NCBI GenBank assembly: GCA_016188895.1
Contig: JACPGZ010000049.1
Location: 1-34,332 of the forward strand
DNA length: 34,332 bases
Direction: 5' to 3'
DNA from: Candidatus Pacearchaeota archaeon
Lineage (GTDB): Archaea; Nanobdellota; Nanobdellia; Pacearchaeales; GW2011-AR1
The translations under genes and the position numbers were made by a program. The stretch's first letter is position 1. Each line of letters opens with the position of its first letter. The notes below the pieces were generated by a model, which did not search any database, was not told where the DNA came from, and saw only the letters and a list, made by a program, of their open reading frames with translations. This document shows positions 11,102-26,656 of the stretch, piece by piece.

Positions 11102-11431
11102 ATGTTCAATCTAGACCCTAAAAAGATGCAGGCTGTTATGAGGCAGATGGGCATAAAGCAGGAGGAGATTGATGCCCTGCGCGTGGTAATAGAAACTCCT
11201 GGAAAGAATATTGTGGTTGAGCCCGCTTCTGTCCAGAAGATTGTTATGCAAGGTCAGGAAAGCTTTCAGATTTCAGGCGATGTCAAGGAAGTATTGCTTG
11301 CTGATGGGGATATTTCTGAGGATGATGTTAAAATTGTGATGGAAAAGACAGGCAGGAGCGAGGATGAATCCCGCAAGGCGCTTGAAAAAACACATGACAT
11401 CGCAGAAGCTATTCTAGAGTTGAGTGATTAA
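11102..11431 (+). CDS. nac: Nascent polypeptide-associated complex protein (NAC alpha)
   Basis: 109 residues from ATG 11102. MFNLDPKKMQAVMRQMGIKQ is the archaeal NAC N-terminus. The central barrel follows (ETPGKNIVVEPASVQKIVMQ, QESFQISGDVKEV), and the C-terminal ~40 residues form a UBA domain (ISEDDVKIVMEKTGRSEDES, AILELSD). Archaeal NAC works as a homodimer at the ribosome exit tunnel and shields emerging chains. Length and domain order are normal. A TTG nine bases earlier is in frame, but the ATG directly after the secG stop is more likely. Confidence 0.95.
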   Translation: MFNLDPKKMQAVMRQMGIKQEEIDALRVVIETPGKNIVVEPASVQKIVMQGQESFQISGDVKEVLLADGDISEDDVKIVMEKTGRSEDESRKALEKTHDIAEAILELSD

Positions 11432-12114
11432 ATTCTTCTCCGCCTTTCTTTCGGCTCTTTTTCCCTCTCTTCATATTTTCGCACATCTTCGTATTCCTTG
11501 TAAAAACCTCTTATCTGCTCTATTTCTGTTCTAGGATTTCTTATCTCTCTTTTTTCTTCAATTACTGCAGATGGTGCAAGCTCTGGCCTTAAATTTCTTA
11601 TGTTTGCCTCTCTAAATCTGGATTCAGGAGCTCTTTGCTCAACTATTCTTGGAGCCTGTGTTCTTTCTGGATTATAAATGCGCCTTGTTTCTGCGTCAGC
11701 TCTTCTTACATCTCCGAGAGAAGTGGCTTCAACATATTTAGTCATTTCTTTTGAAGGCTCTCTTTCGCTGTACATTCGCACATTTCTCTGCTCTGCTTGT
11801 GCTGTTTGTGTATTTCGCGGTGTTTCAGAAACCTCATCAAGGGTTCTTACAGGACTTATATCATCTGTTCTAATTATAGGAATTACCGGCTTGGATTCTG
11901 CGCGCTCTTCTGAAATGAAATCCAATCTGCCCGGCTTTTTTTCTTCATTTTTATCTTGCGTGTCTGCTCCCTCTATTTCTTCTTTCTTTAGCTCTTTTAC
12001 TTCTTTTATTTTTATATTATTTTTTAATTCTCCTGGCTCTTTAACTTTTATTTTTATGATACCAGCTACTTTTTTTGCCTCTGCCGGTTTCTTTAGAATC
12101 CTGAGTTTTGCCAT
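11428..12114 (-). CDS. Disordered, charge-rich protein at the end of a membrane gene cluster
   Basis: 228 residues from ATG 12114 (MAKLRILKKPAEAKKVAGII). The first ~35 residues could form a small beta/basic domain (LRILKK, IIKIKVKEP). The remainder is low complexity, rich in Glu, Arg, Lys, Pro and Thr with no hydrophobic core, ending in EEREKEPKERRRRI. It is probably intrinsically disordered, perhaps a nucleic-acid or membrane-surface linker. It follows the cytosolic and membrane proteins of the cluster on the same strand and overlaps the 3' end of nac by four bases tail to tail. No family recognised. Confidence 0.6.
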   Translation of the reverse strand: MAKLRILKKPAEAKKVAGIIKIKVKEPGELKNNIKIKEVKELKKEEIEGADTQDKNEEKKPGRLDFISEERAESKPVIPIIRTDDISPVRTLDEVSETPRNTQTAQAEQRNVRMYSEREPSKEMTKYVEATSLGDVRRADAETRRIYNPERTQAPRIVEQRAPESRFREANIRNLRPELAPSAVIEEKREIRNPRTEIEQIRGFYKEYEDVRKYEEREKEPKERRRRI

Positions 12115-12168
12115 AATTATCAAAAGAAATTGGGGTATAAAACATTTGCTATTTTATTTATTACATGG

Positions 12169-12372
12169 CTAGGTATATGAAGCCATTCCATGGGCTTTTT
12201 TATAAATATCAAAAATATTATAGCAGATTTCTTCTGCCTTTTCCCGCGCAAGTTTTCTAACAGCTTTTTCTATGTAGCTGTCTTTTCTAATTTGTTTTTT
12301 GCTTGTAATATCTGCATCTTTGCCTTTTTCCTCTGACTTTTCCTTCCCTTTTTTATTGTAAATCCTCCTCAT
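12169..12372 (-). CDS. Small lysine-rich protein, unknown
   Basis: 67 residues from ATG 12372, which overlaps the 3' end of the preceding gene by 20 bases; an upstream in-frame ATG at 12396 would add eight residues. The first half is basic and polar (MRRIYNKKGKEKSEEKGKDA). The second half predicts a helix (DSYIEKAVRKLAREKAEEIC) and ends YNIFDIYKKAHGMASYT. The overlap indicates translational coupling to the 384-residue protein. Function unknown. The last codons and stop region contain an imperfect palindrome (agccattccatgggct) that may act near transcription termination. Confidence 0.55.
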   Translation of the reverse strand: MRRIYNKKGKEKSEEKGKDADITSKKQIRKDSYIEKAVRKLAREKAEEICYNIFDIYKKAHGMASYT

Positions 12373-13507
12373 CTTTTTCTTTGAGATAATAATCAATCTG
12401 CTCTTTCAGCGTTTCAAGAGATTCTGAAGTGACCATATCTGCAAGTTTTAATGCATCTTCAAAATCAGATTCTTCTAATTTTTTCTTTAATAACATAATC
12501 TCGTCATCATTCATTGCATATGCTTTAAAGCTTATTGTAGTTTTTCCGCCAAAGGTATAATCCCCTCTTTGGGTTACTCTTTGAGGTATTCCCCTGAAAC
12601 TAAAATCAATAATCATGCAGTAATAATAATTTCTTTTAAATTTCATCTCTGCAAATGGAATTGGAAGAGTGCCTTCCTGCAGCGCTTCTTCTTCTATCTT
12701 TATTGGTTTTTTTGCAAATAATGTTAATTCAAGAAGTATTGTGTTGAAAGCTGTAACAAGTTCAGGGCTTTTTGTTTCCTTCATTTCAAGCAGTGTTGCA
12801 GTCTTCAAATACGGCTTTACCCATCTTGTATAAAGCTGCAAAGTGCCAACCTGGCTTTTCAGGTATGTTTTCTCTATCTCAAATCTTTTTCTGAGCTCTT
12901 TTTCAGATGTTTCCTTCCAGATTAGAAACTCGCTAAGCCGGGCTTTCAAGATTCTTTTTACCCTGTCATTTAAGTCAAGGCTATCTGCTTTTTTCACAGA
13001 GTTTGCTGACATAAAAGCATCTCTTAATGTAGTGAACATTAATTCAGCTGTTGACAGATTATTGATGCTTGCGCGCCCTTTTTTAATATCAACATTGTCC
13101 ATCCATATCTGCTTTAACGCAATATTTCCAGATTCCTTGATTTTTTCATCGCTTGAATTTGCATCATCATAATGATGTAGGCGCATTTCAAACTCTCTTA
13201 AATCATAGAGGATATTGATTATGCTTTTTAGCACTTGATTTATGGCACCAAGTATCTTCATCGCCTCATCCTGCATTCTCGTTGCTTTCTGCCCTAGCTC
13301 TGAAAAATGGCCTGAACCATGAGATGATGCAAAATTATCAACAAGCTTTTCCACATTTCCAGAGAACATTCCGTTAATCAAGTCAAGAATCCAGAAATAA
13401 ATCGGCTCAAGTGTATCGCTTGGAGAATCATAAATTAATTGATGCTCTGCGTCAGGCTCACCGACAATATTCTCTAATATTTCTGAAATAGTTTTGTCTT
13501 GGGCCAT
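12353..13507 (-). CDS. Conserved cytosolic protein of the membrane cluster, unknown function
   Basis: 384 residues with no signal peptide or membrane segment. Residues ~75-240 are mostly helical and charged (GQKATRMQDEAMKILGAINQ, ILKARLSEFLIWKETSEKEL, RKRFEIEKTYLKSQVGTLQL, YTRWVKPYLKTATLLE), suggesting a long coiled-coil or helical bundle. Residues ~285-350 change to beta-rich aromatic sequence (FKRNYYYCMIIDFSFRGIPQ, YTFGGKTTISFKAYA). An acidic helix ends it. It starts one base after the stop of the membrane protein gene 13509-14261 and is surely co-translated with it. I recall homologues in other Woesearchaeota-like genomes but no function; a peripheral partner of the adjacent membrane proteins is the natural inference. 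Confidence 0.72.
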   Translation of the reverse strand: MAQDKTISEILENIVGEPDAEHQLIYDSPSDTLEPIYFWILDLINGMFSGNVEKLVDNFASSHGSGHFSELGQKATRMQDEAMKILGAINQVLKSIINILYDLREFEMRLHHYDDANSSDEKIKESGNIALKQIWMDNVDIKKGRASINNLSTAELMFTTLRDAFMSANSVKKADSLDLNDRVKRILKARLSEFLIWKETSEKELRKRFEIEKTYLKSQVGTLQLYTRWVKPYLKTATLLEMKETKSPELVTAFNTILLELTLFAKKPIKIEEEALQEGTLPIPFAEMKFKRNYYYCMIIDFSFRGIPQRVTQRGDYTFGGKTTISFKAYAMNDDEIMLLKKKLEESDFEDALKLADMVTSESLETLKEQIDYYLKEKDEEDLQ

Positions 13508-13508
13508 T

Positions 13509-14261
13509 TTAAAGTCTGCGAAGGGCTTTTAATTTTCTTCGTAATTCTCTTGAGATCTGCCTAAATTGAGAATCTGTTATTATGTTCCTATTTAAGTCCC
13601 TTCGTGCTTCATCTAATTGTCTACGAACCTCTCGTTCATATTGCTGTCTATTTTGCATACCGAGCTGGCCCATTTGATATTTTATTATTACCCTTCTTAC
13701 AGTGCCGTCAAACAGGAAGAAGAAAAATGACAATATTCCTGTAATAAAATATATCCAAGATAAAGCGCCAACTTCACTATATCTGGAGAGCCATAAACCG
13801 AAGAAAATGACAACAAAGAATATCCAGAGTATTCTTCTAACTATCGGGCCTTCAAACGATTCTGTGAAAAAGAAGAATACAATCAGTGGAATTGCTCCTG
13901 TTAATGCAACTCCAAGGACTGTATAAGGCAGTATGATTGTTTTTACAAATTGGGTTTCTGTCAAGAAACGAGTTGCAAGAAGAGCAACTGCTCCTGCTAT
14001 AACCCATACAACAGCTGGCTTATCCTGAAAAGCAGAAAATCTTTCTAATGCAACATATGATACACTAAGTATTATAACAAGGAATAATACCTTTTCGAAC
14101 AAGAATTGGCCAGTGCCACCAAAAAATGCAGAAACAAATGGCGCTGAAAAATCTTCTGCTAATTTAACAAGCTGTTCAGAACCCTGCCTTAAATCGAATT
14201 GAGCTGAAACAATTGCAATTAAACCAAGTAAGACTATGATATATAATGCGCTCTTTTTCAT
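13509..14261 (-). CDS. Exported multi-spanning membrane protein, paralogue A
   Basis: 250 residues. A signal-peptide-like start (MKKSALYIIVLLGLIAIVSA, then QF) is followed by a short extracytoplasmic segment and five hydrophobic helices between about residues 45 and 190. Motifs shared with the next gene are LLATRFL, ILPY...GVALTG..P, WLSRYSEVG and FLFDGTVRR. The C-terminal ~55 residues are charged and helical (RRQLDEARRDLNRNIITDSQ, FRQISRELRRKL), resembling a SHOCT-like short oligomerisation element. It has its own TATA-like signals in the 47-bp gap upstream and runs directly into the 384-residue protein. Function unknown. Confidence 0.75.
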   Translation of the reverse strand: MKKSALYIIVLLGLIAIVSAQFDLRQGSEQLVKLAEDFSAPFVSAFFGGTGQFLFEKVLFLVIILSVSYVALERFSAFQDKPAVVWVIAGAVALLATRFLTETQFVKTIILPYTVLGVALTGAIPLIVFFFFTESFEGPIVRRILWIFFVVIFFGLWLSRYSEVGALSWIYFITGILSFFFFLFDGTVRRVIIKYQMGQLGMQNRQQYEREVRRQLDEARRDLNRNIITDSQFRQISRELRRKLKALRRL

Positions 14262-14308
14262 ATTTCAATAATATAAAAGAAGTTTATAAAGATTAATATT
14301 TTATGAAG

Positions 14309-15124
14309 TTAGAATGATTCAACTCTCCTAAGTCTCCTGTTAAACTCTTTGAGCATTCTTCTGTGTTGTGTTGCTGTAATTACTCCATTTGCTAAGTCAG
14401 TATTTGCCTGGTTTATTTTTCTTCTAAGCTCTGCTGAAAGAGCTGTTCTGTCAGCAGCCCCTATTGCTTCCATTTCAGATTTTACAAATGCTCTTCTAAT
14501 AGTTCCATCAAATATGAAAAACACAAAGCAGATTCCTGATGTTACTATATATATCCATACAGGATTGAATTTTCCAGCTCCCGCAATTGTTCCTATTTCT
14601 TCGTATCTTGATACGAATAGTCCAATGAAAACAACAGCTGCAAATATCCATGCAGTCTTCCTTAATGTTGGCCTCGGGCCGATTGTTTTTTCCACAAAAT
14701 AGAAATATAAAAGCAATGGCAAAAATGCAGTTAAGGTAACTGCAAATGCATTATACGGCAGTAAGATTGTTTCTACCCATCCTGGAGTTGCTAAGAATCT
14801 TGTTGATAATAATGATACACCTATTGATAAAACAGCTATAATCCATACATACTCGTTAAATGGGGGTATTGCGTCAAGGACAGCCCACACTACTGCTAAT
14901 ATAATAAGAAAAATAAATAATTTTGCAAAGAAAATATCGCCCTGCGCTTGTCCTGAAACAACTGATGTGCCTAATATTGGTCCGAGGATTACATTTAACA
15001 CTTCAATAAATCCCTGCCAGAACTTCTTTACATCATCAACAATGTTTTGAGCAGAGGCAAAACTTGTTAAGAACAAAGAAATTACTACTGCTATCGAAAA
15101 TAATGCCAATCTCTTTTTGTTCAT
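14309..15124 (-). CDS. Exported multi-spanning membrane protein, paralogue B
   Basis: 271 residues, clearly related to paralogue A. It has a signal peptide (MNKKRLALFSIAVVISLFLT, cleavage near SFASAQ), a ~45-residue outer segment, about five membrane helices, the shared motifs LLSTRFL, ILLPYNAFAVTLTAFLP, FVSRYEEIG and FIFDGTIRR, and a charged C-terminal tail with the SHOCT-like pattern L-A-N-G-V-I-T-A-T-Q-H-R. The likely topology places the outer segment outside and the tail in the cytoplasm. It leads the minus-strand set; its TATA box (tttataaa) is in the divergent gap shared with paralogue C. Confidence 0.75.
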   Translation of the reverse strand: MNKKRLALFSIAVVISLFLTSFASAQNIVDDVKKFWQGFIEVLNVILGPILGTSVVSGQAQGDIFFAKLFIFLIILAVVWAVLDAIPPFNEYVWIIAVLSIGVSLLSTRFLATPGWVETILLPYNAFAVTLTAFLPLLLYFYFVEKTIGPRPTLRKTAWIFAAVVFIGLFVSRYEEIGTIAGAGKFNPVWIYIVTSGICFVFFIFDGTIRRAFVKSEMEAIGAADRTALSAELRRKINQANTDLANGVITATQHRRMLKEFNRRLRRVESF

Positions 15125-15213
15125 AGTTGTTGTAGAGAATTAGACTTTATAAATTTCACCTTTCTAAAATGAATTGACGAAATATTTATAAAGCAGATTG
15201 CTGTTAACTGACA
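15125..15213. promoter_or_regulatory. Divergent promoter between paralogues B and C
   Basis: Two TATA-like boxes are visible: atttataaag on the minus strand about 25-30 bases before the gene starting at 15124, and atttataaag on the plus strand (around 15184-15193) about 25 bases before 15214. The two diverging copies suggest coordinated expression of the related genes. Confidence 0.55.
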
Positions 15214-15930
15214 ATGAAAAAGAGAGCAACAAAGTTATATTTATTCGTATTAGTTAGTTTTTCTCTAATTTCGCTTTTAACAACAATCGTTATTGCGCAA
15301 GACACAGTCTTAGATAGACTTATCGGTCCTGGAGGTTTGTCAGGGGTCTTTGAAAACTTATCTAATAGCAACTTATTTGCAAAAACGCTATTGTTCATTC
15401 TTGTTGCATTGATTGTTTATGCTGTTGCAGGTTCATTACCCATGATGCGCGGCGATAAAACATATATCGCTGCATTAATATCTATCGTTGTTGCCTTGTT
15501 AGCTACATTCTTTTTAAAAAGCCAAGAAATTAATACTATTTTACTTTCTTATGGAGCTTTAGGCATAACCTTAACAGGAATTTTACCATTTGTTTTAATT
15601 ATGATTATTGCAAAACAGCTCGCTGACGCAGGTTATGGATTCTTAAACAGAGTTATTTGGGCGGTATTTTTAATTGTTACTGGTGTACGGTGGCTTACTG
15701 CAACCCCAGAAGATATAGGAACATTTGGAACAGTTGTTTATCCAATTATTATTGCGGCTGTTATAATTATGTTTGCTATTGATAAAAAATTCTGGAGATG
15801 GTTTAAACGAGGTAGAAGAGAAGGTTTTAAAGAGAAGGTGGAAGAGGCTGCACACGAGTCAGTAGCTGGTGCAGAAGCTATGAGTACAATCGCAAGAGGA
15901 TTAGGCGGGCGACCTCAAAAAAGAAAGTAA
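15214..15930 (+). CDS. Exported multi-spanning membrane protein, paralogue C
   Basis: 238 residues with the architecture of A and B: signal peptide (MKKRATKLYLFVLVSFSLIS, cleavage near VIAQDT), short outer segment with Gly/Pro (GPGGLSGVFENL), about five membrane helices, and the shared motifs LLATFFLKS, ILLSYGALGITLTGILPF and V-R-W-L-x6-D-I-G. The F-D-G-T-[IV]-R-R motif is reduced to FAIDKKFWRWFKR, and the C-terminal tail is shorter, Lys/Arg-rich and ends GGRPQKRK. Transcribed divergently from B. Relationship to A and B is judged by eye. Function unknown. Confidence 0.72.
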   Translation: MKKRATKLYLFVLVSFSLISLLTTIVIAQDTVLDRLIGPGGLSGVFENLSNSNLFAKTLLFILVALIVYAVAGSLPMMRGDKTYIAALISIVVALLATFFLKSQEINTILLSYGALGITLTGILPFVLIMIIAKQLADAGYGFLNRVIWAVFLIVTGVRWLTATPEDIGTFGTVVYPIIIAAVIIMFAIDKKFWRWFKRGRREGFKEKVEEAAHESVAGAEAMSTIARGLGGRPQKRK

Positions 15931-16083: not shown

Positions 16084-16599
16084 ATGAAAAACTATAACAC
16101 AAGAGATAGGGTTTTGGAGCTTTTGTTCAATTTTCCTACGAGGAGGTTTCATGTGAGGCAGATATCAAGAATTCTCAAAGTTTCGCCTCCTTCTGTCTCT
16201 AAGGCTATAACTGAATTAGCAAGAGAAAATCTAGCAAAAATAAAGAAAGATTTAACCTATGAAATGCAGGCAAATCTGTCAAATCAAGAGTTTAGGAATA
16301 TGAAAAGAGTATATAACCTAAAAATGGTATACTCGTCTGGTTTATTTAATTATTTAGCAGAAAAATTTTCACTGAATACGATTATACTATTTGGCTCTTA
16401 TTCTAAAGGCGAGGATAATGAAAAATCTGACATAGATATTGCCATTGACTCAAAAGAAAAGCTTCTTGAGCTTGAAGAATACGAAAAAAAATTAAATAGA
16501 AAGATAAATATAGAGTTTTTTGATTATAAAAAAATTAAAAAAGAGCTAAAAGACAGCATAATAAATGGCATTGTTCTTTTGGGATATATTGCAACATGA
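16084..16599 (+). CDS. Winged-helix/minimal nucleotidyltransferase (MNT) antitoxin
   Basis: 171 residues. Residues 1-60 are a winged helix (FHVRQISRILKVSPPSVSKA). Residues ~85-171 are a minimal nucleotidyltransferase with G104-S105 (ILFGSYSKGE) and D116/D118 (KSDIDIAI). In MNT/HEPN modules this enzyme transfers AMP to a tyrosine of the HEPN toxin and neutralises it. The stop overlaps the HEPN gene by ATGA. The operator palindrome upstream suggests autoregulation through the HTH. Architecture matches the gene at 3342-3941, but the sequences are not close. Confidence 0.88.
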   Translation: MKNYNTRDRVLELLFNFPTRRFHVRQISRILKVSPPSVSKAITELARENLAKIKKDLTYEMQANLSNQEFRNMKRVYNLKMVYSSGLFNYLAEKFSLNTIILFGSYSKGEDNEKSDIDIAIDSKEKLLELEEYEKKLNRKINIEFFDYKKIKKELKDSIINGIVLLGYIAT

Positions 16600-17033
16600 G
16601 AGAATTTGAAGATTTTATAGAAAATGGCGATGTAAGGTTACAAGAAAAGAATAAGATTTTAGCAAGCGCTTTGGTAAAGTCCAGCGAAAAAGGATTAAGG
16701 TTTGTAAGGAAGTTGGAAATAAACGAAGAAAATTCTGAGCATATTGTCGCAGATATCTATGACATAACAAGAGAATTGATTGAGGCAAAATTGGCTCTTG
16801 ATGGATATAAGTCATATTCTCACGAAGCAACTATTTTATTTTTGAAAAAATTCAAGCAATTTAATGAATCTGAAATCAATTTTATGGACAATTTAAGAAA
16901 GACAAGAAATAGTATTAAGTACTATGGCAAAGAGGCAAGTCCGGAAGATGCTGAAAAAACCTTGAAATTTATGAATTCTATATTACCAAAGTTAAATAAA
17001 TTGATAGAGAATGATAAAGAGCATAAAAAATAA
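16596..17033 (+). CDS. HEPN-domain toxin-like protein, catalytic His replaced by Tyr
   Basis: 145 residues, all-helical, directly coupled to the MNT gene. The HEPN R-x4-6-H site falls at R104-N105-S-I-K-Y109-Y110-G (DNLRKTRNSIKYYG): the Arg and the following polar residue are present, but the position of the RNase histidine is tyrosine. Helices before it (EHIVADIYDITRELIEAKLA) fit the four-helix HEPN bundle. In characterised MNT/HEPN pairs the tyrosine of R-x4-H-x-Y is AMPylated. This variant may be a non-RNase HEPN or use a different mechanism. Confidence 0.8.
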   Translation: MREFEDFIENGDVRLQEKNKILASALVKSSEKGLRFVRKLEINEENSEHIVADIYDITRELIEAKLALDGYKSYSHEATILFLKKFKQFNESEINFMDNLRKTRNSIKYYGKEASPEDAEKTLKFMNSILPKLNKLIENDKEHKK

Positions 17034-17107
17034 GCTAACTATTCTGTTCAACACTTTTAAAAACATAATTTCTTTATACACGAAAAAGATATATACTAGC
17101 AGAGTTT

Positions 17108-17692
17108 TTGATAGTGATGGAAAGGGGAGTAAGTGACAAGAATATTTTAGATAAGTTTGCAGAGGATTTTTGTAGCATTGTTGATAAATATGTTAAATAC
17201 ATAGTTGTATCTGGTTTTGTTGCTATTTCGCATGGTAGAAAAAGAACAACAGAAGATATAGATATGATAATAGAAAGAATCTCTTTTGAAAAGTTTAGAG
17301 ATTTACATGAAGAGCTGGATAAAGCAGGATTTGAGTGTATGCAATCGTCTGACCCAAAAGTTATTTACAATGATTATCTTAAAGATAATATAAGTGTAAG
17401 ATATTCACGAAAAGGAGGAGATTTTTTGCCTCCAGAAATGGAAATAAAATTTGTTAAAGACGAGCTGGACGAATTACAGATGAAAACAAGAAAAAAACTG
17501 CCATTTACAGGGTTAGATATTTGGTTTTCTTCTATAGAATTTAATGTCGCATTTAAGGAAGAGCTTTTGAAATCTGATAAAGATTTAGAGGATGCTAGGC
17601 ATTTTAGAATAATATATAAAGATAAGATTGATAATAATTTTATTGAAGAAATAAAAAGAAAAATAAGAAAATTGAGGTTAAATGAGAGATAA
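17108..17692 (+). CDS. Nucleotidyltransferase-fold protein (AbiEii/DUF6036-like)
   Basis: 194 residues as an open frame; ATG 17117 (MERGVSDKN) is an equally good start. The core YIVVSGFVAISHGRKRTTED then IDMIIE is the G-[FG]-x-A-x-x-x-H-G-x-x-R-x-T-x-D-[IL]-D pattern of the large nucleotidyltransferase toxin and substrate-binding families. A later MEIKFVKDELDEL and FNVAFKEELLKSDKDLEDAR match the helical half, where K and D/E-D-x-x-D/H are usual. It is probably one half of a two-gene toxin-antitoxin-like unit with the next small gene, which overlaps it. TATA-like agatatatac lies upstream. Confidence 0.72.
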   Translation: MIVMERGVSDKNILDKFAEDFCSIVDKYVKYIVVSGFVAISHGRKRTTEDIDMIIERISFEKFRDLHEELDKAGFECMQSSDPKVIYNDYLKDNISVRYSRKGGDFLPPEMEIKFVKDELDELQMKTRKKLPFTGLDIWFSSIEFNVAFKEELLKSDKDLEDARHFRIIYKDKIDNNFIEEIKRKIRKLRLNER

Positions 17693-17891
17693 ATCACATA
17701 TGGAGCAGGTTGAAAAATGGGCAGAATATGTTAGGAATAATCCCAGAGATAAATGGAAGAAAGTTATTAATTTGCTGATGAATGCCACTTATCAAAAAGC
17801 TGATGAATTTTATAAAAGATTAGAGAAAACTAGAGAGGGAAGAGAGATTTTAGCGAGATTGAAGAAAGAAAGGTTGAAGGTTAAGGACTAA
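17682..17891 (+). CDS. Small helical partner of the nucleotidyltransferase
   Basis: 69 residues, or 63 from the second ATG at 17700. Highly charged and helical (MEQVEKWAEYVRNNPRDKWK, KADEFYKRLEKTREGREILA). It overlaps the preceding gene by 11 bases. Small charged partners next to nucleotidyltransferase genes are usually antitoxins or accessory subunits, which is my inference here. I recognise no named family. Confidence 0.6.
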   Translation: MRDKSHMEQVEKWAEYVRNNPRDKWKKVINLLMNATYQKADEFYKRLEKTREGREILARLKKERLKVKD

Positions 17892-17905
17892 GATTTGTTT
17901 CCAAC

Positions 17906-18035
17906 AACTTAGCGATGAAAATAACCCTGCTGTTTATATAAAAATTAAATTTTAGCAGGGTTAATATAATGGAGAAGAATAAGACATATATTTCGCTGAT
18001 GTTAAAGATTGTTTCTTGACGCTAAGTTAAGCGTC
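17906..18035. promoter_or_regulatory. Nested inverted repeats around a TATA box upstream of abiE
   Basis: Outer arms AACTTAGCG (17906-17914) and CGCTAAGTT (18020-18028). Inside them are perfect 9-bp arms AACCCTGCT (17923-17931) and AGCAGGGTT (17954-17962) that bracket a TATA-like tttatataaaaa. A further hairpin GACGCT-aagtta-AGCGTC spans 18018-18035. Expected initiation near 17965 would give a leader starting at or near ATG 17969, which opens a 16-codon frame ending at 18019 on the hairpin. The abiEi gene starts 53 bases after the hairpin. This is probably the operator and leader of the AbiE operon. Confidence 0.5.
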
Positions 18036-18088
18036 TTAATGTGATTAAGATAATGTTTTAATCCTGCCAAATTTAGGTAACTTTTGTT

Positions 18089-18874
18089 ATGTCAAGATTA
18101 TCAAAAATGATAATTTCAATAAAACAAAAGTTTTATAAACAGCAGAATTCACTTATATTTATGAAAGCCCTTGAAATTATAAAGGAATTAGAAAAATTTC
18201 AGAAGGTTATTTTTAGTATCAATGATTTAGCAAAAATAATAAAAAAATCAAGAAAATACTCTTCTTTAGTTTTGTACAGACTTAAGAAAAAAGGGTTAAT
18301 TATCGAGATAGAAAGGAATAAATATGTGCCCAAGGATATGTCTCCGTATGTATTATCTAACTTAATTTATCCTTCTTATCTGTCCTTTTTAACAGCTTTC
18401 AGTTATTATAATTTAACAGCCCAAATACCAAAACAAATTCAAATTGTAAGCCTTAAATCAAAAAAGGAAATTGAATTTGAAAATTATAAATTAAAGTTTG
18501 TGAAATTTAAACCAAATAGATTTTTTGGCTATAAACGCGAGAAGATGGCTCATGGATTTATTTTTATTGCAGAATTAGAAAAAGCAATTATTGATTCTTT
18601 ATTTTTGCCGAAATATTGCCCAATTGACGAAACTTTTAATGTTTTAAATGAAGCAATTAAAAATATAAATTTGGAAAAATTAATAGATTATGCATTAAAA
18701 ATGAAAAGCAAAGTAGTTTTAAAAAGATTAGGTTATTTATTAGAAAAGAAAAATATAAATATCTATAATAAAATAAAAGATAAATTAAATAAGAAATACG
18801 ATAATTTAGACATACTTTCAAATAAAGGCAAAAAAAACAAAAAATGGAGGATTATAATAAATAGAACTTTTTAA
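18089..18874 (+). CDS. abiEi: AbiEi-type antitoxin/transcriptional regulator
   Basis: 261 residues from ATG 18089; ATGs at 18107 and 18161 are alternatives. Residues ~25-85 form a winged helix (KVIFSINDLAKIIKKSRKYS, LVLYRLKKKGLIIEIERNKY). It continues with the AbiEi-like C-terminal part (YPSYLSFLTAFSYYNLTAQI, EKAIIDSLFLP), close in pattern to AbiEi proteins: YISF.SAL..hGL..Q.P and E.A..D.l. Type IV AbiE antitoxins repress their own operon and counter AbiEii without direct contact. The partner gene starts one base after this stop. Confidence 0.85.
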   Translation: MSRLSKMIISIKQKFYKQQNSLIFMKALEIIKELEKFQKVIFSINDLAKIIKKSRKYSSLVLYRLKKKGLIIEIERNKYVPKDMSPYVLSNLIYPSYLSFLTAFSYYNLTAQIPKQIQIVSLKSKKEIEFENYKLKFVKFKPNRFFGYKREKMAHGFIFIAELEKAIIDSLFLPKYCPIDETFNVLNEAIKNINLEKLIDYALKMKSKVVLKRLGYLLEKKNINIYNKIKDKLNKKYDNLDILSNKGKKNKKWRIIINRTF

Positions 18875-18875
18875 G

Positions 18876-19637
18876 ATGTTAGACAAAAGAGAACTGGAAA
18901 AGTTTAAATTATCTTCTGGCTTTAATTTAGGGCAAATAGAAAAAGATTATCTGCAAAATTTATTTCTCTTATTTTTTTCTCGTAACATTAAAGATGAGAT
19001 TATATTCAAAGGCGGAACTGCTATTCAGAAGATTTACGGCTTGAACAGATTTTCCGAGGACTTAGATTTTACATTAATAAAGGACTTAGATTTAGATAGT
19101 GTGATTGAACAGGTAAGCAAGAATTTAATTAATTTCGGCTTTGAAACAAGTTATGAACTGCTTAAAAGCAAAAGCTCTAAAAACTATCGTTTAAGAATAA
19201 AAGGGCCTTTATTCGACGGAACTGATAAGACAATTGCGAGTTTAAGAATTGAGGTTAGTTTAAGAAACGATTCGGTTTTGGAGCCAGACTTAAAAGAGAT
19301 TATTCCGTTATATCAAGATATTCAGCCTTATATAATCCTTGTAATGAATATTCAAGAAATTCTCGCAGAAAAGATAAGAACAATTATGCAAAGAGAAAAA
19401 GCAAGAGATGTTTATGATTTATGGTTTTTATTAAAAAAGAACATTAAGATTGACTATAAACTTATAGATGAAAAATTCAAGATTTATGAATTAATATTTA
19501 ATAAAGATATTTTTTTAAGAAAATTAAAAGAAACAGAAAAAATATGGAAGCAAGAGCTTTCTGGCTATATTAGTCTAATTCCAGACTTTAATAATATCTT
19601 GAAAGAAATTAGAAAATATTTTAAAATTACCTATTAA
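18876..19637 (+). CDS. abiEii: AbiEii-type nucleotidyltransferase toxin
   Basis: 253 residues. FKGGTAIQKIYGLNRFSEDL then DFTLI (from residue ~44) is the hallmark K-G-G-T-x-L/I-x-K-x-Y...R-x-S-E-D-L-D-F of DUF1814/AbiEii. The later EILAEKIRTIMQREKARDVY then DLWFLL is the second conserved block (E-K-x-x-A/T...R.R-A-R-D-x-Y-D-L). AbiEii proteins use NTP to modify tRNA acceptor ends and cause reversible growth arrest or abortive infection. It is separated from abiEi by one base and surely belongs to one operon. All visible motifs are intact, so it is likely functional. Confidence 0.92.
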   Translation: MLDKRELEKFKLSSGFNLGQIEKDYLQNLFLLFFSRNIKDEIIFKGGTAIQKIYGLNRFSEDLDFTLIKDLDLDSVIEQVSKNLINFGFETSYELLKSKSSKNYRLRIKGPLFDGTDKTIASLRIEVSLRNDSVLEPDLKEIIPLYQDIQPYIILVMNIQEILAEKIRTIMQREKARDVYDLWFLLKKNIKIDYKLIDEKFKIYELIFNKDIFLRKLKETEKIWKQELSGYISLIPDFNNILKEIRKYFKITY

Positions 19638-21674: not shown

Positions 21675-22703
21675 TTAAAACCATTTCTTTAAGTCACTCT
21701 GCTGGACTTTTTTCCTCCCGTCTTCAAGTTTTTTCAGTCCATTGTCAATCCTTTCTTCTGAAAAATCCCTTGAAACAAGAAGTTGCTTTATTTTTTTATT
21801 ATCAATCCCGTGGAATTCTATTTTGATGTCCTTTTCTATATTTGGCTTTTTGAAAAGCTCAAAGATTTCCTGCCAGTCAAACTGCTCTTCTTGTTCTTTG
21901 AGCCTGTCTTCCACTGATTTGAAAATCAGCGTAGGCTGCTTCATTTTCCTTACAATATCCAGCGCTTTTCTTGGGCCAATTCCATATATTCCTTTTGGAT
22001 TGTAATCTGTTCCAATTAAAATACCAAGGCAGATTAATTGATCTTGGTTTATTTGCAAGTGATTTAGCACTTTTTCAAGCTCTATGATTTCAGGGCTTAT
22101 GTATACATAACCTGATACGGTTTTTCTTTTCCTTGCAAGCGTGAGATTTTGTATAAGGCGCGGAGCGCCGAAAAGAAGCGCATCATAATCTTGGCTGCCT
22201 ACTGCAAATGCTTTTGATTGCGAAATAAATGCAGCCTGTGCTTCTCCCTCGCCTGGTGCATCAATTGTTGGAATTCCCATTGCATTCAATAACTCTTTGC
22301 TTTCCTCTATAATCTCTGATGTGAGATAAGAAAACTGCTTTGCATATTTTGCCATTGCCTCAACATCTTCTTTTTGTTTTGCTTCTGCGTATCTGTGCTC
22401 AGCTTCCAGTTTTCGTTCTTTTCTTGATTCATGCGTCCTCTGCTTTTGCTCAGGAGGAGTTCCATCAAAAACATACACAGGTTTTATCCCTTCTATTAAT
22501 AGATTAATGTTTCTGTAAAAAAGACCTGAAAGATGGCTTGTTACCCTGCCTTGCCTGTCCATTAATGGTGTGCCATCTGGCTGCCTTATTGTTGTAATGA
22601 ACTGGAACAATATATTAAATGCATCAATGCATATTATCTTTCCAGAGAGCTCTGACATCTCTAAAGCTCTTCGCGGAACAATATCACCTATCTGCAATCC
22701 CAT
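21675..22703 (-). CDS. fen: Flap endonuclease 1
   Basis: 342 residues, the normal archaeal FEN-1 size. N domain: DAFNILFQFITTIRQPDGTP and VYVFDGTPPEQK with metal-site aspartates. I domain: APGEGEAQAAFI, GSQDYDALLFGAPRLIQNLT and LGILIGTDYNPKGIYGIGPR (helix-two-turn-helix after the last acidic pair). The C-terminal QSDLKKWF (335-342) is a PCNA-interacting PIP box (Q-x-x-L-x-x-[WF]-F). It removes 5' flaps during Okazaki fragment maturation and base excision repair, where PolX from this window could supply gap filling. The gene has its own upstream TATA-like element in the gap to 22781. Confidence 0.97.
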   Translation of the reverse strand: MGLQIGDIVPRRALEMSELSGKIICIDAFNILFQFITTIRQPDGTPLMDRQGRVTSHLSGLFYRNINLLIEGIKPVYVFDGTPPEQKQRTHESRKERKLEAEHRYAEAKQKEDVEAMAKYAKQFSYLTSEIIEESKELLNAMGIPTIDAPGEGEAQAAFISQSKAFAVGSQDYDALLFGAPRLIQNLTLARKRKTVSGYVYISPEIIELEKVLNHLQINQDQLICLGILIGTDYNPKGIYGIGPRKALDIVRKMKQPTLIFKSVEDRLKEQEEQFDWQEIFELFKKPNIEKDIKIEFHGIDNKKIKQLLVSRDFSEERIDNGLKKLEDGRKKVQQSDLKKWF

Positions 22704-23878: not shown

Positions 23879-26656
23879 TTACTGATTCTCCGCCAATCCT
23901 TTCCTATCTCTTATTCTTCTTATAATATCTTGCTGGAGTTCAGCCGGCATTTTCTCAAACATCTGATCAAACAGCGATGAAACTCCGCGGCCTTCTGTAG
24001 CTGACCTTAAATCAGAACTCCACCCAATCATCTCTGCAACAGGAATTTTTGCCTTGATTTCTGCAAGCACTCCTTCCTGCCTTGCATCAAGGACTTTGCC
24101 TCTTTTTGACGATACTAATTTTATAATTTCTCCCATAAATTCAGCCGGGACATCAATAACATGAATTTGTATAGGCTCAAACATTACTGGCCCAGATGTT
24201 TTAAATCCTTGAGTTATAGCATCTCTTATTGCCGGATAAACTTGTGCAGGGCCTCGATGTATAGCATCTTCATGAAGTTTTGTGTCTACAAGAGAAACTT
24301 TAATTCCCATGCAAGGCTCTCGTGATAAAGGGCCTGCGTCCATAACCATCTCAAATGCATCCATTATCATATCTATAACTTCTCCTATATATACCTCACC
24401 TCTTGTTTTTTCTAGAAAGACATTTGCTTTATAGATATCTTTATACTGCCTCGCCTCGTCATTGCTTATTCCACATCTATTCAATGTTTTCCATAACTCT
24501 TCGTCCTTCTTTTTAATTCTCCCTTCTGAAATATCCCCGTTTTTGACTGCTTCATAGACCTCTTTTTCAAGAGGCTCTACTTTTATATAGAATATATTGT
24601 GTTTGTTTGGAGAGCGACCTTCCATCTCCATGGATTCTCTGGTCACAGTTTCTCTATAGACAACAACAGGGTCTCCTGTTTTTACCTCAACACCCTTTTC
24701 TGTTTTAATCCTGTTTTCTATAATTTCTAAATGAAGCTCGCCCATTCCGCTTATTAGATTCTCTCCTGTTTCTTCATTTATAGATACTTTAATAGAAGGA
24801 TCCTCTTTTGCTACTTTTCTTAAAACTTCGATAAGTTTTGGCAAGTCAGCTGGTTTTGTAATTTCAATTGACTTTGTTATAACAGGCTCAAATATATGCT
24901 TTAATTCTTCAAATGGATGCTGAGGGTTTAAAGTTACAGTTTCTCCCGCATTTCCAGTTATTCCTGCAATGGCTAAAACATTTCCAGCTGTTATCTTTTC
25001 CATCTGCTCTGGTCTTATTCCATTATAAATCAAAACCTGCTGAATAGCTTGCTTTTGCTTTGCATTATTCAGATAAACCTGCATTCCAGGAACTAATGTG
25101 CCTGAAAATAATCTTCCGGCTGATATTTCCTTTCCAGAGCGAGGATCAATCACGATTCTTGTGATTACAAAAGCAGGTTCTCCGTTTGGATTTACATGAA
25201 GAAGATTTTTGCCAAACTCGCTCTCCAAATCACCGCGCCATATTTTCGGAATTCTGTATTTTTGAGCTTCAATCGGAGACGGAAGATGCTTTACTACCAT
25301 ATCAAGAAGAACTTCATATAATGGAGCATTTTTCCACGCCCACTCCTTTCGTTTGTCATCTTCCATTGAATACATATTTAGAATATCTTTGAATCCTATA
25401 TTCCTCTTCTGCATAAATGAGAATGATAATGCCCAGTTATCCCTGGCAGAGCCAAATGCAACACTTCCTTCCCTGATGTTTACCTGCCATTTCTTTTTGT
25501 ATTCGGGCTCTGCAATATGCTCAATCAGTGTATTGAACTTAAAGATAACTTTCTGCAATCTTTCCTGAAGTACTTCAGGAGTTAATTTTAGTTCTTTGAT
25601 AGCTCTGTCAACTTTGTTTATGAATAGAACTGGTTTTACCCGCTCCCGCAATGCCTGTTTTAAAACTGTTTCTGTCTGCGGCATAATTCCCTCTACAGCA
25701 CACACCAATACAACAGTGCCATCTATCGCACGCATCGCTCTTGTAACATTTCCACTAAAATCAACATGTCCTGGAGTGTCAATAAGGTTAATTAAGTATT
25801 CTTTGTCTTGATAATCATGAACCATAGAAACATTTGCAGCGTCAACTGTCATTAGTCTTTCCTGCTCATCTGCATGCTGCCATGTTGCCATTCCCTCTTC
25901 CAAAGAGCCGGCTATTTTTGAAGCCATTAACCCGGCTGCTGCAAGAAGGTTGTCTGTCAGGGCTGTGTTATGGATAACCATTCCTTCTGCTATGAAATTA
26001 TGCGTTTCTGGAATGGTAAAGTCATATACTATTTCTTCGAAACTTGACTCTATTTTACTGACTTCAACAAAGGCTAAATCAGGATAAGGGTTTTTCATTA
26101 ATTGAATTAATTTTTTATTTCCATCGCTGATTTCTATGTAGTTATATTTAGATTTATCTGAATTCTTTTCTCTGCAAAATAAATCAGATTCTGTATTTCG
26201 CGCACATACAACTCTGTCTCCAATTTTTAAATCTCTCGCTTCTATATCTTTAAAGCCATCTTTCCATATTGTGTATTTATGTTCTGGAGTTGTAGATATT
26301 TCAAAGCCATTTCTCAATCCTATTTTTAAAGTGTTTCCACCTTTTAATCTCCATACATATTGTATAGGCTTTCTTTCAATCTTGCCTGTATCTTTATTAA
26401 GTGAAAAAACAATTATTTTTTCGTTTGGAATAAAAATTGTATAGTCTTCATTTTCTTCTTTTATAATGCAATCTTTAGAAACTTCTTCAAATATATCTTT
26501 AGCTTTCTTTATTGTTCTATCCACAAGCATTAGTCTAGAATTTCCACTAATGCACTTACCGTGATGTATATGGGCAGAAGTGGCAATATTCCTGATAAAT
26601 TCGGACTTGTGCATAATTCTTGCAATGCGCTGTAAATTTGTCTCTCCTTTTGCCAT
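23879..26656 (-). CDS. fusA: Archaeal translation elongation factor 2 with P-loop mini-intein
   Basis: 925 residues, of which 35-230 are an intein; the spliced protein would be 729 residues, the normal aEF-2 length. Extein motifs: G1 AHIHHGK|TALTDNLL (27-34 and 231-238), switch I ADEQERLMT (262-270), G3 LIDTPGHVDF (291-300), G4 LFINKVDRA, and the domain IV loop HEDAIHRGPAQVYPA, whose His in I-H-R-G is the diphthamide site. It catalyses GTP-driven translocation on the ribosome. H31 replaces the usual Asp of H-[IV]-D-H-G-K, and L268-M269 replace G-I of R-G-I-T. Without splicing the P-loop is broken, so cell viability would require intein removal. It closes a gene run with hisS upstream on the same strand. 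Confidence 0.96.
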   Translation of the reverse strand: MAKGETNLQRIARIMHKSEFIRNIATSAHIHHGKCISGNSRLMLVDRTIKKAKDIFEEVSKDCIIKEENEDYTIFIPNEKIIVFSLNKDTGKIERKPIQYVWRLKGGNTLKIGLRNGFEISTTPEHKYTIWKDGFKDIEARDLKIGDRVVCARNTESDLFCREKNSDKSKYNYIEISDGNKKLIQLMKNPYPDLAFVEVSKIESSFEEIVYDFTIPETHNFIAEGMVIHNTALTDNLLAAAGLMASKIAGSLEEGMATWQHADEQERLMTVDAANVSMVHDYQDKEYLINLIDTPGHVDFSGNVTRAMRAIDGTVVLVCAVEGIMPQTETVLKQALRERVKPVLFINKVDRAIKELKLTPEVLQERLQKVIFKFNTLIEHIAEPEYKKKWQVNIREGSVAFGSARDNWALSFSFMQKRNIGFKDILNMYSMEDDKRKEWAWKNAPLYEVLLDMVVKHLPSPIEAQKYRIPKIWRGDLESEFGKNLLHVNPNGEPAFVITRIVIDPRSGKEISAGRLFSGTLVPGMQVYLNNAKQKQAIQQVLIYNGIRPEQMEKITAGNVLAIAGITGNAGETVTLNPQHPFEELKHIFEPVITKSIEITKPADLPKLIEVLRKVAKEDPSIKVSINEETGENLISGMGELHLEIIENRIKTEKGVEVKTGDPVVVYRETVTRESMEMEGRSPNKHNIFYIKVEPLEKEVYEAVKNGDISEGRIKKKDEELWKTLNRCGISNDEARQYKDIYKANVFLEKTRGEVYIGEVIDMIMDAFEMVMDAGPLSREPCMGIKVSLVDTKLHEDAIHRGPAQVYPAIRDAITQGFKTSGPVMFEPIQIHVIDVPAEFMGEIIKLVSSKRGKVLDARQEGVLAEIKAKIPVAEMIGWSSDLRSATEGRGVSSLFDQMFEKMPAELQQDIIRRIRDRKGLAENQ
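25967..26554 (-). other. 196-residue mini-intein in the EF-2 P-loop
   Basis: 588 bp in frame. Block A starts at Cys1 (CISGNSRLML). Block B is GFEISTTPEHKYTIW with the T-x-x-H motif at intein residues 89-92. Block F is VYDFTIPETHNFIAEGMV. Block G is I-H195-N196 followed by extein Thr+1. These are all residues needed for standard class 1 protein splicing with Cys1, penultimate His, terminal Asn and Thr as nucleophiles. No LAGLIDADG or other endonuclease motif fits in the ~60-residue linker between blocks B and F, so it cannot home by itself. The insertion separates Lys34 from the P-loop Thr. Confidence 0.95.

Follow-up and report, generated by a model that had tools for sequence, protein, structure and literature searches.

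The window and its genes

The window, by which we mean the whole stretch of DNA that was analysed, is an entire 34 kb contig of a Candidatus Pacearchaeota archaeon (GCA_016188895.1, contig JACPGZ010000049.1, positions 1-34,332, forward strand; GTDB lineage Archaea; Nanobdellota; Nanobdellia; Pacearchaeales; GW2011-AR1), from an assembly of 0.97 Mb that is 87% complete. The archaeon carrying the gene set described here is tiny and probably host-dependent. The open reading frames and coordinates listed in a previous, sequence-only reading of this DNA all exist. The features of the locus are the following:

F, 11428..12123, (-): disordered charged protein; equivalent of gene X (see below) by position and composition alone
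E, 12169..12396, (-): C-terminal portion of gene D, read in another frame than the first part
D, 12353..13507, (-): first part of the gene of a near-core soluble protein; 384 amino acids versus the usual ~460-510
Paralogue A, 13509..14261, (-): 250 amino acids; signal peptide, ~5 transmembrane helices and charged helical tail; tree class A
Paralogue B, 14309..15124, (-): 271 amino acids; AlphaFold model with pLDDT 90 and pTM 0.64; PDB fold search without match
Paralogue C, 15214..15930, (+): 238 amino acids; divergent from B, 89 bases apart
MNT + HEPN type toxin-antitoxin pair, 16084-16599 and 16596-17033, (+): within the slot; PADLOC match
AbiEi/AbiEii toxin-antitoxin pair, 18089..19637, (+): within the slot; PADLOC match
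Paralogue P4, 20300..21001, (+): 233 amino acids; A/B/C superfamily, E 8e-23 with a wide profile that itself included P4 and P5; absent from the first reading
Paralogue P5, 21008..21652, (-): 214 amino acids; A/B/C superfamily, E 7e-19 with the same wide profile; abuts FEN1
FEN1 (XPG family) nuclease, 21675..22703, (-): conserved border of the slot; outside the proposed complex

Farther along the contig, positions 23879-26656 encode an EF-G family protein, elongation factor 2, of 925 amino acids, which carries an intein splicing domain at residues 44-230 (PF14890).

A family of exported membrane proteins

A and B share 37% identity (BLAST E 8e-50), B and C 27% (3e-14), and A and C 29% (2e-11); by these comparisons they are true paralogues. 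The sequence-only reading was right about this kinship but not about the number of copies, which is five and not three. It missed P4 and P5, which join the A/B/C superfamily both by searches with a profile (A1) built from 57 relatives and by clustering of the neighbouring genes. Against a profile of A/B/C alone, P5 scores 2e-4, and profile-profile comparison of A/B/C with P4/P5 gives 9e-10. Two of the three motifs reported as shared, L-L-x-T-x-F-L and [SV]-R-[YW]...[DE]-[IV]-G, are present in A, B and C, while I-L-x-x-Y-x-x-x-x-[VI]-x-L-T-x-x-x-P is found in B and C, A having I-I-L-P-Y instead.

The signal peptide and the count of about five helices are borne out. The model of B comprises, besides a signal helix and an amphipathic one, five membrane helices and a ~65-residue helical tail, and a simple pattern search finds a signal-peptide-like start in 115 of the 117 family members. 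Once the signal peptide is cleaved, the N-terminus would lie outside and the charged helical tail, beyond some five helices, in the cytosol, an N-outside, C-inside orientation that fits the loop charges. The tail had been described as SHOCT-like: it is indeed charged and helical, but A, B and C have no SHOCT match at E<=5, and one of the 57 homologues reaches E 0.002. The divergent arrangement of B and C is common, the same divergent-pair layout being found in 19 of 33 related loci.

Searches for known relatives return little. Foldseek of the B model against the PDB and viral libraries gives nothing at E<=0.001, and PDB sequence-profile searches with alignments A1-A4 yield no match below E 0.05. 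There is no credible Pfam match for A, B, C and P4, no credible NCBIfam match for A, B and C, and no PADLOC model match at E<=0.1 for A, B, C, P4, P5 and D; a literature search retrieved no description of the A/B/C family. This family of class-wide, uncharacterised exported membrane proteins is outside any Pfam or NCBIfam model.

Old paralogue types

A maximum-likelihood tree of 116 family proteins (support given as bootstrap/SH-aLRT) splits A/B/C (78 rows) from P4/P5 (38 rows) at 100/100. Types C (16 rows from 15 loci, 100/98), P4 (14 rows, 96/92) and P5 (12 rows, 100/99) are almost all single copy per locus. Resolution is poorer for type A, whose core of 24 rows has support of 89/82 and one protein per locus, and for type B (21 rows, 53/91); the separation of the two from each other is weakly supported (53-59% bootstrap), and 22 of the 116 proteins fit no assigned type. 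All five types are found together in the window and at one other locus (L044) only; many loci hold two to four types, some because the contig ends there. By this tree the paralogues are ancient, mostly old subunit types kept together rather than recent copies.

The set diverges fast. Median cross-genome identity is 28% for A, 28% for B and 25% for C (23-29% over the five types), as compared to about 57-58% for FEN1, 52% for TYW2 and 63% for HerA, their neighbours. Relatives of B are found in 41 of 186 genomes, and A/B/C matches at E<1e-20 are confined to the source's own GTDB family. Distant members occur across the class (L233-L244); they are longer, the exported membrane part being the same and the cytosolic tails long; tandem pairs are frequent, and ribosomal L35Ae and PAC2 genes are common neighbours.

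A fixed genomic slot

At most of the 33 loci, the set lies between FEN1, often accompanied by DNA polymerase B, and genes for a TYW2-like methyltransferase, a HerA ATPase and a DsbA-like protein. This order is kept across Pacearchaeota-type relatives with or without the A/B/C set, and the window retains the FEN1 side of it, the MNT/HEPN and AbiE pairs sitting between C and P4. A two-helix protein of 80-110 amino acids (family f1) is encoded at 24 of the 33 loci, mostly adjoining A. A HerA-type ATPase gene lies near the set at 18 of the 33 loci and is also kept in genomes lacking the set. Another 20 loci were examined, most of them from genomes that give no clear A/B/C match, and the majority show the same gene order. 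Because the order persists in loci without A/B/C, the neighbours of the slot are best regarded as synteny and not as partners.

Among these loci, the slot is empty at L196. Other slots without the set hold different genes, as a rule with one to three among them that encode divergent proteins with a signal peptide, ~5 helices and a charged tail; a profile of such slot singletons matches A/B/C at 98% and 1e-13 in profile-profile comparison. Many members of the same GTDB family have just one, a few or none of these divergent proteins in the slot, which, like the scarcity of loci with all five types, speaks against a five-part complex.

Toxin-antitoxin pairs like those at 16084-19637 of the window recur in the same slot of other genomes. 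In a leave-one-locus-out count, from which matches to queries of the same locus were excluded, MNT/HEPN-type genes are ~11-fold denser within the slot (13 in 107.6 kb) than outside it (4 in 372.7 kb), a figure that is approximate because the query set was seeded from the slot itself.

D, E and probably F belong to another module

A single base separates the stop of A from the start of D on the same strand, as the sequence-only reading had noted in proposing D, E and F as a cytosolic partner set. Comparison across genomes, the check that this reading had suggested, does not sustain the proposal. Homologues of D are found in 174 of 186 relatives and in 52 of 53 near-complete genomes, usually as a single copy, consistently without A/B/C, which is the observation that the sequence-only reading had named as refuting its proposal; named relatives are almost all labelled Pacearchaeota, Nanoarchaeota or plain archaeon. 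In the 39 other genomes that hold relatives of both D and B, the two are never near each other: they lie on different contigs or, in the three genomes where they share one, are separated by at least ~180 kb. The A-D adjacency is therefore peculiar to the source genome.

D usually heads an operon of its own, in which it is followed by an acidic disordered protein (X), an AP_endonuc_2-type TIM barrel (Y) and a nucleotidyltransferase (Z). Y is found just downstream in 45 of the 69 testable D loci. In the near-core D-X-Y-Z operon (L055-L073, L095-L134), D is ~480, Y ~600 and Z ~299 amino-acids long. In the source genome, Z is located elsewhere (60% identity) and Y is detected only as a weak match.

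E had been taken for a separate lysine-rich small protein. It aligns instead, in another frame than D, with the C-terminal ~57 residues of intact D homologues, which are mostly 456-567 amino-acids long (phmmer 3e-15), and matches the conserved end that terminates in YKKAHGMAS. By this alignment, D and E are a single gene, broken by a one-base frame change within an A-rich linker around 12353-12396; the change could be a sequencing error or real decay, and no second copy of D was found in the source's own assembly (87% complete). F is probably X, the usual second gene of the operon, judging from position and composition alone, there being no detectable sequence match between the two. The model of D is of moderate quality (pLDDT 73); Foldseek against the PDB returns nothing at E<=0.001, and Pfam and NCBIfam provide no credible match. 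Most simply, D, E and F represent a separate housekeeping module, unrelated to A/B/C and brought beside A by a rearrangement.

A remote link to a pilus-type ATPase cluster

Profile comparison relates A/B/C to TM4, a four-helix membrane family that 174 of the 186 genomes encode (hhalign 96.5%, E 9e-10 over 109 columns, in a single-pair comparison whose score membrane composition can inflate). The TM4 genes commonly stand in the order M50 protease, PRC-barrel protein, two or three TM4, two coiled-coil proteins and T2SSE ATPase, the ATPase lying near TM4 in 20 of 25 loci. Examples are G000:C45:1691-3279 (L186), L075, L076, L078 and L213-L231; one of the coiled-coil proteins is weakly FlaC-like, the ATPase is ~760 amino-acids long, and a membrane protein of ~720 amino acids is often present. 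No Pfam model covers TM4. DUF2070 was considered and rejected: its best E-value is 4e-5, in 2 of 13 members, and a member scored in full fell below the cut-off.

Remote as it is, this likeness between profiles is the sole mechanistic hint for A/B/C, also as regards the secretion or adhesion role that the sequence-only reading had suggested. T2SSE genes are absent from the window and from the gene families conserved around the A/B/C loci. In the source genome, T2SSE is found on contigs C35, C32 and, weakly, C56. The first bears a separate, canonical type IV pilus locus (G000:C35:22001-31263, L187) with T2SSE, two T2SSF proteins and short proteins that have class III signal peptide-like starts; the second bears, at the contig end, a T2SSE ATPase fragment with an intein splicing domain (G000:C32:5544-6626, L188), near a 712 amino-acid membrane protein.

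A putative envelope complex

A, B, C, P4 and P5 can be understood as five paralogues that diverged long ago within one archaeal family of polytopic exported membrane proteins. Of the membrane system first proposed, the complex of related exported subunits gains support, as old types are found side by side in one place, and the cytosolic partners do not. The five proteins would most plausibly assemble into one hetero-oligomeric envelope complex, a proposal in which, going by the sequences, we place as much belief as doubt. Confidence in any specific function is lower than that. Most likely, the complex would serve an envelope or surface machine as platform or pore, because the family is distantly related to TM4, encoded with a type IV pilus-type ATPase. 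The two-helix protein beside A may be a further subunit, and the complex possibly derives from pilus-associated membrane proteins. The combined scenario, a five-paralogue complex with the two-helix subunit, of pilus-ATPase-linked origin and diverging fast through contact with hosts, rivals or viruses, is advanced tentatively and would more probably fail than hold as a whole.

A rather doubtful alternative is that the slot houses a variable, fast-evolving surface or immunity repertoire beside toxin-antitoxin genes, in which every protein works on its own, as a membrane effector or in superinfection exclusion, for instance. The density of HEPN/MNT-type genes and the rapid divergence of the set point this way, as does a weak resemblance of 3 of the 57 homologues to the membrane toxin SpoIISA (E 1e-4). 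However, all five proteins lack a PADLOC match, the enrichment was measured with slot-derived queries, and a fixed site occupied by old paralogue types is not the pattern of mobile, patchy genes. Uncoupled housekeeping transporters or channels arisen as tandem duplicates are unlikely: the polytopic, hydrophobic nature of the proteins and the lack of conserved partner enzymes and of any known family match speak for this idea, but the cleavable signal peptide of nearly all members and the helical cytosolic tails, which are long here and very long in other orders, fit a structural or complex-forming role better.

A DNA import channel of VirB6/VirB2 or Ced/Ted type, working near the HerA ATPase, FEN1 and DNA polymerase, seems quite improbable. 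B does match TrbC/VirB2 (PF04956) weakly, at E 0.05, over residues 3-56 that are mostly signal peptide, and HerA is a frequent neighbour; yet TrbC has no match at E<=0.01 in the 57 members, no pilin is found among the PDB sequence or fold matches, and the HerA, FEN1 and PolB order is kept where the slot lacks the set. The original proposal of one machine comprising A/B/C together with D, E and F is scarcely credible, as the one-base spacing of A and D that speaks for it is confined to the source genome, D being near-universal where A/B/C are not and belonging to a conserved operon, and E being a fragment of D.

For the surface biology of Pacearchaeota-type archaea, a fixed, fast-evolving multi-paralogue envelope set offers a concrete target for structure prediction and localisation studies. 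As a core envelope machine of such cells, the near-universal PRC/TM4/coiled-coil/T2SSE cluster makes a strong candidate. Keeping D apart from A/B/C avoids the testing of a false partner and draws attention to D-X-Y-Z as an uncharacterised near-core module.

Comparison with known systems

SHOCT-tailed membrane proteins (PF09851) resemble A/B/C by their short charged helical C-terminal tail, a likeness to which the single matching homologue adds; A, B and C themselves have no match, and their conserved part is the membrane core. Membrane families of the DPANN and archaeal dark matter (PMC6393860) are likewise conserved, uncharacterised exported membrane proteins of small-genome archaea; the consulted part of that source does not describe the A/B/C family.

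Published Ted loci encode a HerA-like helicase and a signal-peptide-processed pilin (PMC9905601). The Ced/Ted DNA import systems (CedA/CedA1, TedC; PMC9905601) share with A/B/C the exported membrane subunits and a HerA-type ATPase in the neighbourhood. They differ in that no sequence match was found by the Pfam, NCBIfam and PDB searches with A/B/C, and in that the DNA enzymes beside the slot are present with or without A/B/C. Since HerA, FEN1 and PolB stay together as housekeeping synteny where the set is lacking, a Ced/Ted-type link through them was rejected.

Archaeal type IV pilus-type loci combine a T2SSE ATPase with accessory multi-helix membrane proteins (Makarova et al. 2016, PMC4858521), and in Thermoproteales, proteins with 4-5 TM and no detectable similarity are paired with secretion ATPases (PMC4858521). 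A/B/C differ in having additional helices and a signal peptide, and the genes beside them include none for an ATPase, platform protein or class III pilin; the T2SSF/TadC/FlaJ platform domain (PF00482) has no match in the 57 members at E<=0.01. The likeness to these loci lies in TM4, the distant kin of A/B/C, which is encoded near a T2SSE ATPase, PRC-barrel and coiled-coil proteins.
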